A DNA stretch of 52,516 bases from Mesorhizobium sp. (lineage in GTDB: Bacteria > Pseudomonadota > Alphaproteobacteria > Rhizobiales > Rhizobiaceae): positions 1 to 52,516 of the forward strand of contig NZ_JAFKID010000029.1 of NCBI RefSeq assembly GCF_017306545.1, written 5' to 3'. Numbering within the stretch: position 1 is the stretch's first letter; every line of letters starts with the position of its first letter. Positions 21,022 to 32,208 of the stretch are shown here, piece by piece. Both the position numbers and the translations under genes were made by a program. The notes under the pieces were generated by a model. That model was not told where the DNA came from and did no database searches. It saw nothing but the letters and a program-made list of their open reading frames with translations.

Positions 21022-21237
21022 CTAAGGTTGCGGGCCGAACCCGTCTGCCTTGATACCTGCCACGACGCCCGCCTTGGCACGCGCGAAGGCGAGCCACTGG
21101 CGCAACAGGCCGCCGTCTTCCTTCGAGAATTGCGAACGCTGCTTCAGCGCGTCGAACGTATCGTCCGGATGGCAACGGTCATAGGCATCACGCGCGACGG
21201 CCTCGATGGCGTTTTCGTCAAGCTGGTACGAGGTCAT
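21022..21237 (-). CDS. Conserved small protein of unknown function
   Basis: A 71-aa soluble acidic/helical protein (MTSYQLDENAIEAVARDAYD...). There is a good RBS, GGAGATCGG, before ATG 21237, and codon use is like the neighbours. It has no transmembrane segment or cysteine cluster. It follows nnrS on the same strand with 26 bp between, so it may be its second gene. I do not recognise a domain; a role in the nnrS unit is only suggested by position. Confidence 0.6.
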   Translation of the reverse strand: MTSYQLDENAIEAVARDAYDRCHPDDTFDALKQRSQFSKEDGGLLRQWLAFARAKAGVVAGIKADGFGPQP

Positions 21238-21263: not shown

Positions 21264-22469
21264 TCAGGCAGGCGCGCGGTTCGGCTGCCTAGCCTTCAGC
21301 TTCGGACTGACCAACATGCCGCCGTAAAGCGCAGCGTAGCCGAGGAATGCCGCGGCCCAAAGCCCCGCCGAAGCATGAATGAGCATATCCCGTCCGGGGT
21401 CGAAGGCGGCAAGGATGCGCAGCAGCGCGGCAAGCGTCACGCAGACATAAATCGCCACCGTACCGCCGCTCGCCTTCAGGTCGCGGCCGGTATGGCCGAG
21501 CGTGGCGCGCGTCATCACCGCCAGCGTCATCGAGCCGATGGCGCCGACGCCGAAGGCATGAACGGCCGCTGCCTCCGGCACGCTGTCCGGTGCCAGCGCG
21601 GCGCAGCCGGCCAGCATCAGACCGATTGGCACGAAGGCATAGGCGACATGCAGCACCAGCACCAATGGATCGCGCATGGTGCGGTATCCGGCCCAGCGGA
21701 CAAGCCGGATGATATTGAACAAGGCCGCAACGACCAGCGCGACGCCAGTGCCGGTGCGGTCCGGGACGAAAGCCCATGCCGCCAGCGCCAGCGCCGAGAC
21801 GGCGATCGCCGCCGCGTCGAAGCGGCCGAAGGGCGCCGGCAGCCGGCCCGGATTCTCGCGCGCCAGCCAGTTGCGCGTGAAGCTCGGGATGATGCGCCCG
21901 CCGATCACCATGATGAGCACGACGGCCGCGCCGATGCCGAGACGGCGGGCGAGATCGGACGCGCCGAGCACATGCGCCTCGACATGGAAGACGACGTTGG
22001 CGGCAAACAGCACGCTGACCGGTGCCAGCACCTTGAGGTTGCGCCAGTTGCGCCCGGCGACGATCTCGGTCGCCGCCGCCCCGGCCACCGCCAGCAGGAA
22101 GGCGCAGTCGATCACCGCCGCCGGCAGCCAGCCGAGGGAACCGGAAAAGAACACCGCCACGCGCCCCGCCAGCCACAGCAGCACCAGCAGAAGCAGCGGC
22201 GTGCCCTGCACCGGCAGGCGGCCGGTCCAGTTCGGGATGGCGGTGAGCAGGAAGCCGGTGACGACCGCCGCGAGATAGCCGAACAGCATTTCGTGGATAT
22301 GCCAGTCCACCGGCGCGAAGGCGCTTTGCGTGGCGAGGTCGCCATAGAACAACGGCAGCCAGAACAGGATGGCGCCGCCGGCCTGCAACGAAGCGAACAG
22401 GAAGAACGGCCGGAAGCCGTAGGAAAGGATGGCCGGATACTTGCCGGGCCGGGTACGTGGAATTGCCAT
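21264..22469 (-). CDS. nnrS: NnrS family membrane protein
   Basis: A 401-aa, roughly 12-helix haem- and copper-containing membrane protein of the NnrS family, linked to protection from nitrosative stress. Signature stretches are YGFRPFFLFASLQA near the N-terminus, DWHIHEMLFGYLAAVVTGFLLTAIPNWTGR, and IGSMTLAVMTRATLGHTGR near the C-terminus. The start at ATG 22469 gives normal length; an ATG 45 bases upstream is possible. An Nnr-type box (TTGCGCCGGATCAA, 22542-22555) lies about 73 bases upstream of that ATG, a sensible distance for activation by the divergent Crp/Fnr regulator. Biochemical function of NnrS is still not well defined. Confidence 0.92.
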   Translation of the reverse strand: MAIPRTRPGKYPAILSYGFRPFFLFASLQAGGAILFWLPLFYGDLATQSAFAPVDWHIHEMLFGYLAAVVTGFLLTAIPNWTGRLPVQGTPLLLLVLLWLAGRVAVFFSGSLGWLPAAVIDCAFLLAVAGAAATEIVAGRNWRNLKVLAPVSVLFAANVVFHVEAHVLGASDLARRLGIGAAVVLIMVIGGRIIPSFTRNWLARENPGRLPAPFGRFDAAAIAVSALALAAWAFVPDRTGTGVALVVAALFNIIRLVRWAGYRTMRDPLVLVLHVAYAFVPIGLMLAGCAALAPDSVPEAAAVHAFGVGAIGSMTLAVMTRATLGHTGRDLKASGGTVAIYVCVTLAALLRILAAFDPGRDMLIHASAGLWAAAFLGYAALYGGMLVSPKLKARQPNRAPA

Positions 22470-22541
22470 GACCGTCAGTCGCCTGTGATTTCGAAGCCCG
22501 TCGCCAAAGGCCAATCATGACCTTCGGCGCGCGCCGGAACG

Positions 22542-22555
22542 TTGCGCCGGATCAA
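22542..22555. promoter_or_regulatory. Nnr/FNR-type binding site between nnrS and the Crp/Fnr gene
   Basis: TTGCGCCGGATCAA matches the FNR-type pattern TTG-N8-CAA, with one TTGCG half-site as preferred by NnrR and one ATCAA half-site as in FNR. It sits between two divergent genes, one of which encodes a regulator of this class. Control of nnrS and possibly autoregulation are inferred. Confidence 0.6.
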
Positions 22556-22687
22556 ACGGCGGCGGCCGCGCCGGTCGGCCGATAAGTCGCGATGCCCACG
22601 CCTTGCGGCACAGCCGCGCCGCATGACATTGTAGGCGCCGCCGGATCGGCCCGGCACAATGCCGCTCGCCAAGCAGGGAGAACCGTA

Positions 22688-23392
22688 TTGAGCCGTCTCG
22701 ACCGCTCGCTGATTGCCGGGCTGCCGCCGTTCGAAGGCATGGCGCCGGCGGACCTCGACCGCATGCTCGCCCAGGCCCGCTCCCAGCGGATCGCCAAGGA
22801 CGAGGCCGTCTTCGAGCAGGAAGACGCCGCACACGCCTTCTTCCTCCTGCTCGACGGCCATGTCCGCGTCATCAAGACCACGCCGGACGGGCAGCAGGTC
22901 ATCGTGCGCTACATCAGCCCCGGCGAATTGCTCGGCATCGCCCATGCGCTCGGCCGCACCACCTATCCGGCGAGCGCCGTCGCCGCGGTCGACTGCGTCG
23001 TGCTGGCCTGGCCAGGGCACCTGTGGCCGGAATTCGCCGCCGCCTTTCCGAACTTCGGCGCTAACACCTACAAGACCGTCGGCAGCCGCTTGCAGGACAC
23101 CCAGACGCGCGTCGTGGAGATGGCGACTGAGCAGGTGGAGCGGCGCGTCGCCCACGCCCTGCTGCGACTGATCGACCAGACCGGCCGCAAGACCGAGGAC
23201 GGCATCCTCATCGACTTCCCCATCTCGCGCCAGGACATCGCCGAAATGACCGGCACCACCCTGCATACGGTGAGCCGCCTGCTGACGGCCTGGGAAGACC
23301 AGGGCCTGGTGAAGAGCGGACGGCAGAAGGTCGCCGTCACCGAACCGCATCACCTGCAACTGCTCGCCGAAGGACGCCTGCCGAAAAGCTGA
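22688..23392 (+). CDS. Crp/Fnr-family regulator, Nnr/Dnr type
   Basis: A 234-aa regulator with a cyclic-nucleotide-binding-fold sensor (about residues 15-125, FEQEDAAHAFFLLLDGHVRV, SPGELLGIAHALG), a dimer helix, and a C-terminal HTH (ISRQDIAEMTGTTLHTVSRLLTAWE). It lacks the N-terminal cysteine cluster of FNR, so it is not an Fe-S oxygen sensor; haem-based NO sensing as in DNR/NnrR is likely. The recognition helix reads LHTVSR where FNR has E-x-x-S-R, consistent with altered half-site choice. The start is TTG 22688 with GGGAG upstream. Adjacent nnrS and the box between them support a nitrogen-oxide regulator. Confidence 0.85.
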   Translation: MSRLDRSLIAGLPPFEGMAPADLDRMLAQARSQRIAKDEAVFEQEDAAHAFFLLLDGHVRVIKTTPDGQQVIVRYISPGELLGIAHALGRTTYPASAVAAVDCVVLAWPGHLWPEFAAAFPNFGANTYKTVGSRLQDTQTRVVEMATEQVERRVAHALLRLIDQTGRKTEDGILIDFPISRQDIAEMTGTTLHTVSRLLTAWEDQGLVKSGRQKVAVTEPHHLQLLAEGRLPKS

Positions 23393-23508: not shown

Positions 23509-23961
23509 TCACGATGCCGCCTGCTCCAGATGCCGCTGCGGCACGCGCGGGCCGAAATCGCGCGGCATCAGCGCGATATCGGCCAGCGTGTAGCGGTCGA
23601 GCGTGGCATGGAAGGAAGCCATGGCGTCGTTCAGCATGCGCGGCAGTTTGCAGCGCTGGGTAATCACGCACTGGTTGCCGCTGGCGAAGCATTCGACCAG
23701 CGCGAAATCCGGCTCGGTCAGCCGGATCACGTCGCCAATGCAGATATCCGCGGGAGCCATCCCGAGGGTCAGCCCGCCGGAACGGCCGCGAACCGACCTC
23801 AGATAGCCGGCGCGCGTCAGCGTGTTGGCAACCTTGTTGAGATGCGTCTTCGACACGCCGAAGACGCGCGCCGCCTCCTCGATGGTGATGAGCCGCTCGC
23901 CGGCCGAGGCCGCATACATCAGCATGCGCAACGCATAGTCGGAAAAATTCGTCAGCCGCAT
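23509..23961 (-). CDS. nsrR: Rrf2-family nitric-oxide-sensing repressor (NsrR)
   Basis: A 150-aa Rrf2-type repressor. The N-terminal HTH (SDYALRMLMYAASAGE..ITIEEAARVFGVSKTHLNKVAN) and wing (RGRSGGLTLG) are followed by three cysteines, Cys91, Cys98 and Cys104 in ECFASGNQCVITQRC, spaced as in NsrR, which holds an NO-sensitive Fe-S cluster. IscR- and RirA-type spacings fit less well. It is last gene of a five-gene minus-strand operon starting at 26663, with 34 bp between it and the haemoglobin gene. It probably represses its own operon through the palindrome at 26740-26760 (inference). Confidence 0.88.
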   Translation of the reverse strand: MRLTNFSDYALRMLMYAASAGERLITIEEAARVFGVSKTHLNKVANTLTRAGYLRSVRGRSGGLTLGMAPADICIGDVIRLTEPDFALVECFASGNQCVITQRCKLPRMLNDAMASFHATLDRYTLADIALMPRDFGPRVPQRHLEQAAS

Positions 23962-23995
23962 GGCGGTTCCTGCTCGATGGTGCGTGGTTCCCCGC

Positions 23996-24454
23996 TCAAA
24001 GGGTTTCCGCCAGGATGGGTTGAATGTCCATCGTATTCTCGCCCCGGCTGAAGGCGATGGCGAGACGGAAGCTGTGGGCGATGCGGAGCGCCCGATCGAA
24101 GAACAGCGCCGCCACCTGCGGCGGACAGCGATGTTCGACGGTCGCCCGAAACAGTGTCAGCCAGCGCCGGAAATGCGCCTCGCCGACATCCGGCAAGGCA
24201 AGATGCGGCGGCAGCGGCCGACCCTGATAGCGCGACGTGCGCAACAGCACGCTCGACCAGAAGTCGCACATCTTGGCCAGATGATGCGGCCATTCCTCCG
24301 CCGCGATGACCCGGTCGAAGACCGGGCCGAGCAGATCGTCGGCGCGGATCTTGTCGTAGAAACCATGCACGACGTCGTGGATCATCCGTTCGTCCAGCAC
24401 GCTGGGCAGCGGCACGCCGTCGATGACGATCATCCGCTTGTCGACCACGTTCAT
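23996..24454 (-). CDS. Group III truncated haemoglobin
   Basis: A 152-aa haem protein of truncated haemoglobin group III. IHDVVHGFYDKIRADDLLGPVF is the N-terminal family block, WPHHLAKMCDFWSSVLL is the distal/E-helix region, and His94 in GEAHFRRWLTLF is the likely proximal ligand. Group III members are usually tied to NO or nitrosative stress. It overlaps the upstream SufT-like gene by four bases (ATGA), showing translational coupling, and precedes nsrR. The length is slightly above the usual 130-140 aa because of a short N-terminal extension and C-terminal tail. Confidence 0.9.
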   Translation of the reverse strand: MNVVDKRMIVIDGVPLPSVLDERMIHDVVHGFYDKIRADDLLGPVFDRVIAAEEWPHHLAKMCDFWSSVLLRTSRYQGRPLPPHLALPDVGEAHFRRWLTLFRATVEHRCPPQVAALFFDRALRIAHSFRLAIAFSRGENTMDIQPILAETL

Positions 24455-24786
24455 GCAGTTCTCCTGTCGATAAGCCCGAGACGGCGCCGCGCCTCGTCAT
24501 TCATCTTGTCGGGCGTCCATTTCGGCTCGTAGGTCATGAACACCTCGGCACGGCCGATACCAGGCACGGAGCCCGCGGCCGCGCGCACCGCGTCCTCGAG
24601 ATAGGCCGAGGCAGGACAGCCTCGCGTGGTGGTCGTCATCTGCACCAGCGCAACTGCGCCCTCGGCGATCGCGATATCGTAGATCAGCCCGAGATCGACG
24701 ACGTTCTCGCCGAGTTCCGGGTCGATCACCAGGCCGAGCGCCCGGCGGATCGCGTCGGCCAGCGCTTTGGTATCCTGCGTGCTCAT
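24451..24786 (-). CDS. Metal-sulfur cluster assembly factor (DUF59/MIP18/SufT-like)
   Basis: A 111-aa single-domain protein of the DUF59/MIP18 family. DPELGENVVDLGLIYDI (from about residue 22) is the core motif, and the reactive cysteine is Cys57 in TTTTRGCPASAYLED. Members assist maturation or repair of Fe-S clusters. It overlaps both neighbours by four bases, so it is tightly coupled to the DUF2249 protein ahead and the haemoglobin behind. In an NO-responsive operon a role in rebuilding NO-damaged clusters is plausible but not proven. Confidence 0.88.
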   Translation of the reverse strand: MSTQDTKALADAIRRALGLVIDPELGENVVDLGLIYDIAIAEGAVALVQMTTTTRGCPASAYLEDAVRAAAGSVPGIGRAEVFMTYEPKWTPDKMNDEARRRLGLIDRRTA

Positions 24787-25298
24787 GACGGTGCCTGCCC
24801 GCGCCGGATGACGATGCGATAATGGCCTTCCGGCGCGAAGCCGCCGCGCCAGGCATGGCCCCGCGCCCGCAACTCATTGAACAGGAACAGCGGCTCGCGC
24901 GGCAGCAGCGCTGCAAGCGTCTGGCCCGGCGCCAGCGCCTCGATGCCTTCCAGCGTCCGCGTCATCGGCTCCGGCGGATCGAGGTCGCGATTGTCGAGTT
25001 CCGACACCGGCTCCGGCCAGTCCTGCGGATCGGCGGGCCGCGCGGCCGGCGGTTCCGGCGCGGCGGCCCCCTGCGGGGTGAAGATCACCTCCCAGTCGCC
25101 GCCGCCGATCTCGCGCGCCGCCGCGCCGAAACCGCGCGCGCCGAGTACCTGGAACAGCGGCAGCGGCTTGAAGGTGGCGAGCAGGCGCAGGCTCTGGCCC
25201 GGCGCCAGCGCGCCCACCGCCTCCATGATGGCGCTGAACGGTTCGCCGCCGTCGCGCAGGATCGGTCGCACGTCGAGATCGAGATGAGAGGAAGTCAT
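24783..25298 (-). CDS. Protein with two DUF2249 domains
   Basis: A 171-aa protein with two copies of the DUF2249 fold. The first spans about residues 6-75 (LDVRPILRDGGEPFSAIMEA, SLRLLATFKPLPLFQVLGARGF), the second about 100-171 (LDNRDLDPPEPMTRTLEGIE, TLAALLPREPLFLFNELRARGH), joined by a Pro-rich linker. Start ATG 25298 has GGAG at good spacing; an ATG at 25316 abuts the upstream stop. DUF2249 is related to TusA-like/sulfur-carrier folds but lacks the catalytic cysteine here, and its function is unknown. Its place in this operon suggests Fe-S or haem handling under NO. Confidence 0.85.
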   Translation of the reverse strand: MTSSHLDLDVRPILRDGGEPFSAIMEAVGALAPGQSLRLLATFKPLPLFQVLGARGFGAAAREIGGGDWEVIFTPQGAAAPEPPAARPADPQDWPEPVSELDNRDLDPPEPMTRTLEGIEALAPGQTLAALLPREPLFLFNELRARGHAWRGGFAPEGHYRIVIRRGQAPS

Positions 25299-25316
25299 GT
25301 CCGTCTCCAATTGCAT

Positions 25317-26663
25317 TCAGCGCGGCGTCGCCAGGAACAGGCGCGGGCGCACCGTGCCCTCCGGTAGCCGCTTGTCTTCGGCCACGTTGAACAGCCGCCG
25401 CGCCAGCACCAGTTCGAGGCCGATGGCGGCGGTTGCGGTAAGCATCAGCCCCGCCGCCAGCCGGAAGAAGTCCGGCCTGTCCGCAAGCAGCATCACGGTG
25501 CCGGCCACCACCGCTGCGAAATAGAGGATGAACCACGGCCCGTCGCGGCGCTCGGCGACGAGGTCCTGGACGCGCGGCGTCGGCTTGCGGCCCATCACCG
25601 GCCCATAGCATTCGAGCCAGGTCAGGAACGGCACGATCTTGTAAAGCTGCGACAGGCCGAGGCCGCTCAGCCAGCCGAAGGCGGCGAGGAAGACGAGCGC
25701 GCCGGCATACCTGCCGAGGTCGCCGAAGGCGAGCAGGCCGAGCGCAAGCAGAACCGTCAGGCAAAGGCAGGCGAAGGCCGCCACGGCCGAGCGGCTGTTC
25801 AGCTCGATCGCCTTGCGCCGGCGGTTGCGATAGAAAAAGACCAGGTCGGCGCCGTAGCAGGACAGGGCCACGCAGCCGCAAAGTCCGGCCAGCGCCGCCG
25901 CCAGCCACGAATCGGAAACGGCCTGCTCCAGCGGCACCGCCACGACAGCCAGCAGCAGCGCCGCGCTGCCGCACCACCACGCAAGATGCGTGGTCCGCCG
26001 CGCCCCGTCAGGCGCCAGCATGAACATCGGCAGCAGGCGATAGCTGACGCCGATGGCCGTGAAGGTGAGCCAGCCGGCAAGGCCCGCCGCCGCATGAGCG
26101 GGCAGGCCGTGCGCCAGCACGCCCGCCGCCTGCGGCAGCAGACCGGAAAGCACGAGCACGAAGGTCACGCCGAGCGCGGCCGTTGCCAACAGGCAGGCCA
26201 GCCCGACAGCGACGAAACGAGCCGGCATGGGCAGGCCGCCGCTTCGGGCGCTCCACAGGGTGCGCCCGACGATCCACGCCATCAGCCCGAAACCGGCCGC
26301 AAGCAGGACACCGGCGATGGGGAAAGCGGGAAGATGCGGCGCGACGGTTCCCGCCAACGCTAAGAAACCGGCAAGCAGACAGGCCAACCCGGCGAGCAGG
26401 CAGGCCAGCGCCGGCAGGACGAGACGGCCGCCTTGCAGCGGCTGCGCCACCAGCACCGGCACGAACTGGAACAGCGCCCCGCACATCAGAAGGCTCAGCC
26501 AGCCGATCGCCGCGACATGGACCAGCACCAGCGTTTCCGGCGCCTCTATCGCCACGGCGGGAAAGCCGTAGCCGCAGGCCATCAGCGCCTCAGCCAGCAG
26601 CAGGAAACCGAATGCGGCGGCGAAATAGGCCATCGTCCAGCGGGAAAGCGCGGCGCCGATCAT
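25317..26663 (-). CDS. Polytopic membrane protein, NnrS/haem-copper-oxidase-like
   Basis: A 448-aa integral membrane protein with about 12 hydrophobic helices. Conserved-looking histidines and aromatic residues occur within helices (VLVHVAAIGWLSLLMCGALF; HGLPAHAAAGLAGWLTFTAI followed by SYRLLPMFML; LSQLYKIVPFLTWLECYGP), a layout reminiscent of NnrS or of orphan CcoN/NorB-like subunits, but the full set of oxidase ligands is not apparent. It is first gene of the NsrR operon, directly downstream of the 21-bp palindrome. A haem- or NO-related role is inferred from context; I do not know a firm family name. It is distinct from the bona fide nnrS at 21264. Confidence 0.75.
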   Translation of the reverse strand: MIGAALSRWTMAYFAAAFGFLLLAEALMACGYGFPAVAIEAPETLVLVHVAAIGWLSLLMCGALFQFVPVLVAQPLQGGRLVLPALACLLAGLACLLAGFLALAGTVAPHLPAFPIAGVLLAAGFGLMAWIVGRTLWSARSGGLPMPARFVAVGLACLLATAALGVTFVLVLSGLLPQAAGVLAHGLPAHAAAGLAGWLTFTAIGVSYRLLPMFMLAPDGARRTTHLAWWCGSAALLLAVVAVPLEQAVSDSWLAAALAGLCGCVALSCYGADLVFFYRNRRRKAIELNSRSAVAAFACLCLTVLLALGLLAFGDLGRYAGALVFLAAFGWLSGLGLSQLYKIVPFLTWLECYGPVMGRKPTPRVQDLVAERRDGPWFILYFAAVVAGTVMLLADRPDFFRLAAGLMLTATAAIGLELVLARRLFNVAEDKRLPEGTVRPRLFLATPR

Positions 26664-26739
26664 GATCGCCCTTCATGCCCCGGCATGGCCCTCTTCCTCG
26701 CACGCCCGTTCAAATCCTGGTTGGACTTTTTCAGTCGAA

Positions 26740-26760
26740 ACATATATTGTCAATGTATGT
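26740..26760. promoter_or_regulatory. 21-bp AT-rich palindrome, candidate NsrR operator
   Basis: ACATATATTG and CAATGTATGT flank a single central T and match at 9 of 10 paired positions. The AT-rich site stands out in GC-rich DNA. It lies 77 bases upstream of the membrane-protein gene on the minus strand and 42 upstream of the plus-strand small gene, the right place to control both. NsrR, encoded at the end of the operon, is the obvious candidate binder; the match to any published NsrR consensus was not tested. Confidence 0.6.
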
Positions 26761-26801
26761 TTTGACGCACCATCGTCGCGCCACGCAGGAACCGCGAGGA
26801 A

Positions 26802-27056
26802 ATGCCGATGCCCCTTGAATGCGACGAGCGCGGTGACTTTGTTCTCGATCCCGCCCTGCTGTGCGCACGGCTCTCGCTGACCGAGGCGGAACTGCGCCGC
26901 CGCATGAGGCTCGGCCAAGTGACGAGCCAGGTCGAAATCGGCATCGGCGACGACGAAGGGCTAAGCCGGCTCACGGTGCGCTCGGGCAGCGCCGTCTGGC
27001 GCGCGGTCGTTGATCGCACCAACGAAGTGGTCGAGGAGGAGCGGATCGACCTTTAA
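26802..27056 (+). CDS. Small conserved protein (DUF6522-like)
   Basis: An 84-aa soluble acidic protein (ECDERGDFVLDPALLCARLS..., ending VVDRTNEVVEEERIDL). The pattern of an N-terminal short HTH-like segment (LSLTEAELRRRMRLGQVTSQ) and a C-terminal beta-rich part with VEIGIGDDEGLSRLTV resembles DUF6522; I am moderately sure of that label. It is the only gene divergent from the NsrR operon and shares the palindromic control region, so it is probably co-regulated by NO. GGAAATGCCG offers a weak RBS. Function unknown. Confidence 0.65.
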   Translation: MPMPLECDERGDFVLDPALLCARLSLTEAELRRRMRLGQVTSQVEIGIGDDEGLSRLTVRSGSAVWRAVVDRTNEVVEEERIDL

Positions 27057-31756: not shown

Positions 31757-32144
31757 TGGCGTCCCCTCAGGCGTCAGGCAGCTTGCATTTCGATGCCGCT
31801 CACAGGCATCGGCGCCGGCACAGTGACAACGATATTCACGAACGCCGATTTGTCCAGCCACGCGCCTGTCGGCAAGGTTGCTGTTCGTCCGCTGCGGGTC
31901 AGTCCCGGATATCTCGGCATCACTCTCACGATCATAAAAGATATATCCTCAATACCATTTTTAGCGGCGACAGTGTCAACCGCGCCCCACGCTGACATTC
32001 GGCCGCAGGCGTGTCTCCTCGCCGTCGGGCCGAGCACAAAGCGATATCCTCGCCGATCGGCGATAGGGCATCTGGACGCACCCCAGCCCGGTTGGACAGC
32101 CGCTCGACCGCCCGATACGCTAGACGGCATGGAGAGGGCGGTCT
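31757..32144. other. Intergenic region between ccoN and usp
   Basis: About 390 bases without a convincing gene. A short open frame on the minus strand (31774-31935, 53 codons, start ATGATCGTG) ends 17 bases before ccoN, but its composition and weak RBS argue against coding. An AT-rich stretch at about 31930-31975 is the likeliest place for the ccoN promoter. I find no FNR-type box close to ccoN itself. Confidence 0.4.
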
Positions 32145-32158
32145 TTGATCCGGATCAA
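32145..32158. promoter_or_regulatory. Perfect FNR/FixK-type box upstream of usp
   Basis: TTGATCCGGATCAA is a perfect palindrome matching the FNR/FixK consensus TTGAT-N4-ATCAA. Its centre is about 57 bases upstream of the usp ATG; a transcription start 41 bases downstream of the centre would leave a short leader containing the GGAG ribosome site, typical of activation by this family. A remote effect on ccoN is possible. Confidence 0.75.
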
Positions 32159-32208
32159 GGAACTTCGCCGTCCCGCGCGACCTTTCGCCGCCGCAACCGG
32201 AGATAGCC

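Follow-up and report, generated by a model that had tools for sequence, protein, structure and literature searches.

A conserved membrane protein-DUF2249-DUF59 module in a Mesorhizobium operon with an NsrR-type operator

The 52,516-nucleotide stretch of Mesorhizobium sp. DNA analyzed here (RefSeq assembly GCF_017306545.1, contig NZ_JAFKID010000029.1, positions 1 to 52,516; hereafter the window) contains five tightly packed minus-strand open reading frames (ORFs) between positions 26663 and 23509. In the order of transcription they encode a 448-residue membrane protein, a tandem DUF2249 protein, a DUF59 protein, a group III truncated haemoglobin and an Rrf2-family regulator of the NsrR type. 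The first three genes belong to a conserved core that travels as a module among relatives. We judge the chances to be about even that the operon is derepressed by nitric oxide (NO) and carries a conserved accessory module of nitrate and nitrite respiration, the products of which would keep iron centres usable. Behind this proposal are features read from the sequence, namely the gene order, an operator, a set of conserved residues and the association of the module with NsrR- or NnrR-type sites and with nirK or narG.

The ORF coordinates, checked in the window, place the membrane protein gene at 26663-25317, the tandem DUF2249 gene (177 residues) at 25316-24783, the DUF59 gene (111 residues) at 24786-24451, the globin gene (152 residues) at 24454-23996 and the regulator gene (150 residues) at 23961-23509. 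These positions agree with a previous sequence-only reading, made without database searches, which had proposed five packed minus-strand genes here with three junctions overlapping or nearly touching; successive genes are separated by 0 bp, overlap by 4 bp, overlap again by 4 bp and are separated by 34 bp. For the second gene an alternative ATG at 25298, better spaced and with GGAG upstream, is the likelier start. The same reading had described the operon as headed by NsrR; transcription runs from 26663 to 23509, and the regulator gene is therefore the distal one, last of the five.

Conservation was assessed in 80 loci, the top-scoring ones among 337 relatives, a choice that over-represents close kin; some come from genomes that are also in the 397-genome set described below. 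A tandem DUF2249 gene lies behind the membrane protein gene in 79 of the 80, a DUF59 gene, from a family named for iron-sulfur (Fe-S) assembly, in 71, and a single DUF2249 gene precedes the membrane protein gene in 46. The conserved core is a membrane protein, a tandem DUF2249 and a DUF59 protein, with the single DUF2249 as an optional first member. The sequence-only reading had named co-occurrence across genomes as its own test, and the core neighbourhood does hold in relatives; its proposal of all five genes as a functional unit does not, as the globin and NsrR genes behind the core are a local extension. The exact gene order of the window recurs in 7 of the 80 loci, all within the 26-row clade of the window, and a globin gene directly follows the core in 11. 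In the 80th locus (L087, 8995-10890) the membrane protein and the tandem DUF2249 occupy one reading frame. An evolved fusion was rejected there, as the relative L071 has the stop in a different frame and the C-terminus of L087 departs from the family consensus, pointing to a probable frameshift. Sinorhizobium meliloti ml45 carries the same four core genes on pSymA, where the annotation calls the membrane protein hypothetical. Genes flanking the 80 loci include nirK (27 loci), norB (19), ccoN (10) and narG (7).

The association with nitrate and nitrite respiration extends to whole genomes. Among 397 genomes of the order, the membrane protein gene was found in 21, spanning 7 families and 13 genera (two more, in which the match was weak and partial at E 1.9e-4 and 3.8e-4, were left out), and every one of these 21 has nirK or narG. 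The nirK gene is present in 17 of the 21 versus 63 of the 376 others (p 1e-9 by Fisher's test, kinship ignored), norB in 9 versus 59 of 376, and narG in 10. In a 337-genome subset, scored with two candidates per genome, nirK-or-narG occurs in 16 of 16 module genomes versus 114 of 321 (p 1e-7, again with kinship ignored). The nirK and narG queries exceed NCBIfam cut-offs, and the norB query owes its name to a COX1 match and to a position matching the annotated NO reductase gene of S. meliloti. As norB is missing from 12 of the 21 module genomes, narG from 11 and nirK from 4, the module serves none of them alone. DUF2249 proteins of any kind occur in 63 of the 397 genomes, all 21 included, and DUF2249 without the module also tracks nirK (21 of 42 versus 59 of the other 355). 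Matches to NirS (PF02239) in 7 of the 21 were dismissed as beta-propeller noise, since the best scored 31.6 bits and each covered no more than roughly a third of the model. Eight other genomes of the genus gave no match, and 67 plasmid records, 46 of them typed as conjugative, hold a relative of the membrane protein gene at E <=1e-40, indicating that the module is mobile on an evolutionary scale; the membrane protein was in no phage record.

Upstream of the first gene lies a 23-bp palindrome, AACATACATTGACAATATATGTT (26739-26761, minus strand), built as 11-1-11 with 10 of 11 arm pairs matching and separated from the ATG by 75 bp. No match to the operator pattern with up to three mismatches arose in 100 shuffles of the window. 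The central TTGACA corresponds to the consensus of promoter -35 elements and could act as one; a repressor bound there would therefore cover the -35 element. The half-sites, CATACAT-N5-ATATATG, share the 7-5-7 layout of the published NsrR motif gATGyAT-N5-ATrCATc (PMC1274295) and differ from that consensus at four positions. Many loci carry A/T at consensus positions G4/C16, and canonical NsrR letters are seen in relatives, as in AAGATGTATTGACAATACATCTT of L118. The exact pattern occurs at two places only in the draft genome of the window, before this operon and at C33:15979-16001, where it precedes a pair of single-DUF2249 and DUF59 genes; a third site, C33:16612-16634, has three mismatches.

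Within 750 bp of the membrane protein gene, the operator with up to three mismatches was found in 30 of the 80 loci versus 2 of 614 control windows taken from these loci, a count that is in part by construction because the pattern was derived from seven of the loci and later widened. The operator is enriched where an NsrR-type gene lies within 4 kb (16 of 22 loci versus 14 of 58, p 1e-4 with kinship ignored). A second kind of site, the NnrR-like box, defined as TTG-N8-CAA beginning TTGCG or ending CGCAA and possibly used by other FNR-family proteins as well, is present in 37 of the 80 loci versus 148 of 1276 controls. It occurs in 33 of the 50 loci that lack the operator but in just 4 of the 30 that bear it. 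Mapped onto a quickly built tree of 79 proteins, the label NsrR-only (26 rows, the window included) requires 7 changes, or 9 when the four loci with both boxes are also counted. It therefore appears that the module has repeatedly come to lie behind an NsrR-type or an NnrR-like site, and from the known behaviour of both regulators it would follow that NO is their common signal. In a Hyphomicrobiaceae genome an operator-like site with three mismatches lies just before ccoN (L028 17288; L070 1518), which suggests that NsrR may control the cbb3 oxidase there too.

The regulator itself matches Rrf2 (PF02082, E 6.6e-32) and aligns with NsrR of Streptomyces coelicolor, Protein Data Bank (PDB) entry 5n07, over the Rrf2 fold with three cysteines and Asp8 (E 5.1e-20). 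Cys91, Cys98 and Cys104 are present in 27 of 27 regulator rows near the module, in which the protein of the window and one other genome are each counted twice, and Asp8 is kept in at least 95%. The cysteines are spaced X6/X5 here versus X5/X5 in 5n07. Because the protein falls below the curated NsrR cut-off (124.3 against 182 bits), and likewise below that of RirA (119.5 against 193), we call it NsrR-type: the fold, the cysteines, Asp8 and the operator layout bear out the earlier identification as NsrR, and the curated model does not. With three cysteines and an aspartate as expected for an NO-sensitive Fe-S cluster, the regulator would bind the palindrome over the promoter and repress the operon until NO from the cell's own nitrate and nitrite reduction damaged the cluster and lifted repression; extra regulator made from the last gene would then reset the switch.

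The membrane protein matched no Pfam family, and among 22 family members scanned COX1 was hit weakly in one (E 5e-4) and NCBIfam SoxB likewise in one (E 3e-5). The sequence-only reading had called it NnrS- or oxidase-like. Identity with NnrS is rejected, as there is no match to PF05940 and the genuine NnrS is encoded by a separate gene (21264-22514, minus strand, E 7.4e-113); an oxidase-type threefold repeat is present. Three stretches at 46-72, approximately 190-216 and 322-348 (transmembrane helices 2, 6 and 10, with a His-GW helix motif) resemble each other, their profile windows matching mutually at z 7.9, 5.9 and 4.9 (reversed control 4.6) and matching one CcoN helix at z 8.9, 7.1 and 6.4 (reversed control 5.8). 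The helix 2 window also matches NnrS at z 6.7 (reversed control 4.2); hhalign of the membrane protein against NnrS, CcoN and NorB gave nothing significant. Only His49 and His190 are invariant in 99 of 99 aligned rows, with no other histidine conserved at 97% or above, and His49 aligns with a CcoN histidine that is presumably a haem ligand. Oxidases and NO reductases have six conserved histidines, which hold two haems and a second metal. A catalytic site of either kind is thereby ruled out: with two invariant histidines there can be no binuclear site and at most one haem. Hydropathy and the profile windows thus point to an oxidase-like fold with room for a putative single haem and no second metal site. 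A family of heme-copper oxidase homology proteins, reportedly described by Pei et al. in 2014 (cited in PMC11218638), is said to combine an oxidase-type threefold repeat with two histidines and a proposed link to denitrification and DUF2249; the present family resembles these proteins and may be one of them. Conserved charged stretches (R281/R283/E287, E351-R364 and R422) lie in loops that, on our reading of hydropathy and the positive-inside rule, are probably cytoplasmic, where the DUF2249 and DUF59 proteins would be.

The tandem DUF2249 protein matches PF10006 over two stretches (E 2.3e-36, 123.9 bits against a cut-off of 29.5) and the globin matches PDB 2ig3, a group III truncated haemoglobin that we take to be Campylobacter Ctb (E 8.9e-18), so both earlier assignments are sustained, although the globin falls below the Pfam PF01152 cut-off (16.9 against 21 bits). 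Tyr33, His58, His84 and Trp98, presumably haem pocket residues including the proximal histidine, are kept at 90% or above in 19 rows. The tyrosine, two histidines and tryptophan align with 2ig3; the window protein differs in its longer N-terminus, a conserved Cys110 and its place in one operon with the module. The DUF59 protein matches PF01883 (FeS_assembly_P; E 2.1e-17, 63.6 bits against 23.5), with a DPE-G motif and Cys57 in 93 of 93 rows; the DUF59, globin and regulator rows all include the window twice. Described before as SufT-like, it retains the family and loses the name, as it scores below the cut-offs for SufT (64.5 against 202.6 bits) and SUF_assoc (83.5 against 143.4). What remains of the sequence-only reading as a whole is the operon, the NsrR-type operator and the conserved neighbourhood; the head regulator, NnrS, SufT and the five-gene unit do not, and the cluster repair and electron flow that it proposed stay putative. 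In the mechanism we propose, the DUF59 protein would pass on Fe-S clusters, the DUF2249 proteins would be soluble partners docked to the membrane protein on its cytoplasmic side, that protein, with its oxidase-derived fold and at most one haem, would supply or sense redox state, and the globin would scavenge NO.

The genome of the window holds a second module copy, 65% identical and close to that of Mesorhizobium composti (L047), behind narGHJI and a parvulin gene, in which DUF1858 takes the place of DUF59 and which has nirK and a nirV-like gene as neighbours. On C33, a RIC/YtfE-family gene for Fe-S repair (232.1 bits against a cut-off of 204.7) lies some 4 kb away from the DUF2249-DUF59 pair. 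The region C33:6000-51900 (L129, L003) forms a nitrate-respiration island with the RIC/YtfE-type gene, the DUF2249-DUF59 pair, nirK, the second module copy and narGHJI; it also holds a further DUF2249 protein with a PECGCE end and, named by eye only, ferredoxin, ubiX/ubiD-like and U32 peptidase genes. As a whole the genome carries nirK and two copies of narG, and no match to norB was found, the best match to the NorB query being its own CcoN; it is thus a potential NO producer with no classical NO reductase.

Parts of this picture have precedents. COG4309 is, as we take it, the DUF2249 family. Rodionov et al. (2005) linked COG4309 genes to nor/norB under NnrR or NsrR (PMC1274295), and the module shares with those genes the family, NnrR-/NsrR-type control, a neighbourhood of NO genes and the palindrome layout; the text on COG4309 in that paper names no membrane protein, DUF59 or whole module, and 12 of the 21 module genomes lack the norB to which those genes were linked. 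In Thermus thermophilus, as described in a 2018 study, DrpA is a single DUF2249 protein and DrpB, which is partly membrane-bound, combines DUF1858 with a tandem DUF2249; both are coupled to the nar operon, a sensor of nitrate was proposed, and drp mutants showed altered nar/dnr expression and inactive aerobically made NarG (PMC6282519). Single and tandem DUF2249, DUF1858 and membrane association are common to both systems, whereas Thermus belongs to another phylum and the text on the Drp proteins describes neither a DUF59 nor an oxidase-like gene. Published expression data include 17-fold and 29-fold decreases of the group III globin gene bll6222 and the DUF1858 gene bsl7085 on loss of NnrR in Bradyrhizobium diazoefficiens (PMC6710368) and induction of all four DUF2249 genes under denitrification in Haloferax mediterranei (PMC11218638); they support the families, not this operon. 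Among the open-licence PMC papers listed for DUF2249, COG4309, NsrR, truncated haemoglobin, DUF59, NnrS or heme-copper oxidase homology, we found no description of the module. The link between DUF2249 and NO is already in print; what is new here is that a conserved module is delimited and that its regulator sites are of two kinds.

The proposal that the module keeps iron centres usable must be weighed against several observations. Nine of the 80 loci have no DUF59 gene directly behind, with DUF1858 there in five, which leaves some copies without Fe-S transfer by DUF59. Genuine fusions between the module genes are absent, RIC/YtfE appears in just 2 of the 80 flanks, no denitrification or regulator gene of those sought is present in 12 flanks (several on short contigs), and 17 loci have neither the operator nor an NnrR-like box. 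The profile windows score 5.3 against NorB, below the reversed control of 6.5, and the NDHDP motif conserved in single DUF2249 proteins is missing from the tandem protein. Finally, the Thermus proteins were assigned a sensing role, not repair (PMC6282519). This last point leads to the main rival, a sensing or signalling device in which DUF2249 proteins would perceive nitrate, nitrite or NO at the membrane and adjust the expression or activation of respiratory enzymes. We consider this rather unlikely: the domain make-up and partial membrane binding of DrpA/DrpB, the nar/dnr changes and the inactive NarG of the mutants speak for it (PMC6282519), as does the tandem DUF2249 and DUF1858 adjoining narGHJI in the second copy, but DUF59 accompanies the module in the large majority of loci and recurs in the separate C33 pair, and many copies already have a known type of regulator gene or site beside them.

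That the membrane protein is an enzyme that consumes NO or supplies electrons, for example a quinol-linked haem protein reducing NO or re-reducing the globin, appears improbable. The oxidase-type repeat, the NsrR-/NnrR-type sites, the globin gene in the same operon and a genome with nirK, two narG copies and no norB match better than its own CcoN all fit such a role; set against them are the two invariant histidines in place of the six of oxidases and NO reductases, leaving no binuclear site, and the small share of loci with a globin right after the core. The general rule that the module replaces a missing NO reductase was also rejected, the module being no commoner among nirK genomes without norB (8 of 43) than among those with it (9 of 37). 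Less probable still, indeed very doubtful, is a maturation factor for one respiratory metalloenzyme, be it Nar, NirK, cNor or the cbb3 oxidase: genes for all four kinds occur in the flanks, yet norB, narG and nirK, the three enzymes checked at genome level, are each missing from some module genomes. For the accessory module with a role in keeping iron centres usable, we infer repair activity from the Fe-S assembly kind of the DUF59 protein, from co-regulation and from the genes found alongside, the RIC/YtfE-type gene on C33 among them. A bolder elaboration, which we offer as speculative and think rather unlikely, is an unnamed membrane complex in which an oxidase-derived protein that kept one haem and lost the second metal would relay either electrons from quinol or a signal of NO by way of the tandem DUF2249 to DUF59 and so rebuild iron centres hit by nitrosylation. 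Such a complex would provide the membrane partner that the DrpA/DrpB picture lacks and would be a general part of the bacterial NO response captured repeatedly by NsrR and NnrR.

The wider neighbours of the operon in the window are NnrS, a Crp/Fnr-family regulator, a DUF6522 gene, the cbb3 oxidase and cydAB. The DUF6522 gene (26802-27056, plus strand) is divergent and starts 40 bp past the operator, the intergenic region being common to both sides; it is a possible co-target, and DUF6522 is found in 17 of the 80 locus flanks. The Crp/Fnr-family gene (22592-23392, plus strand) lies downstream of the operon and convergent to it. FNR-type boxes occur between nnrS and this divergent Crp/Fnr gene (TTGATCCGGCGCAA, within 22515-22591) and upstream of ccoN (TTGATCCGGATCAA, within 31862-32161). 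Downstream of nnrS, a 71-residue ORF (21022-21237, minus strand) resembles, by eye, part of the ORF at C33:16658.

DUF2249 proteins have been placed beside NO genes since 2005 with no settled function, and the unit that contains them is now defined. It stands behind one of two unrelated kinds of regulator site and has no exclusive tie to nor, nirK or nar. As S. meliloti, which carries the four core genes, is a tractable host, the question of how denitrifiers and legume symbionts handle NO comes within reach of a simple deletion experiment.

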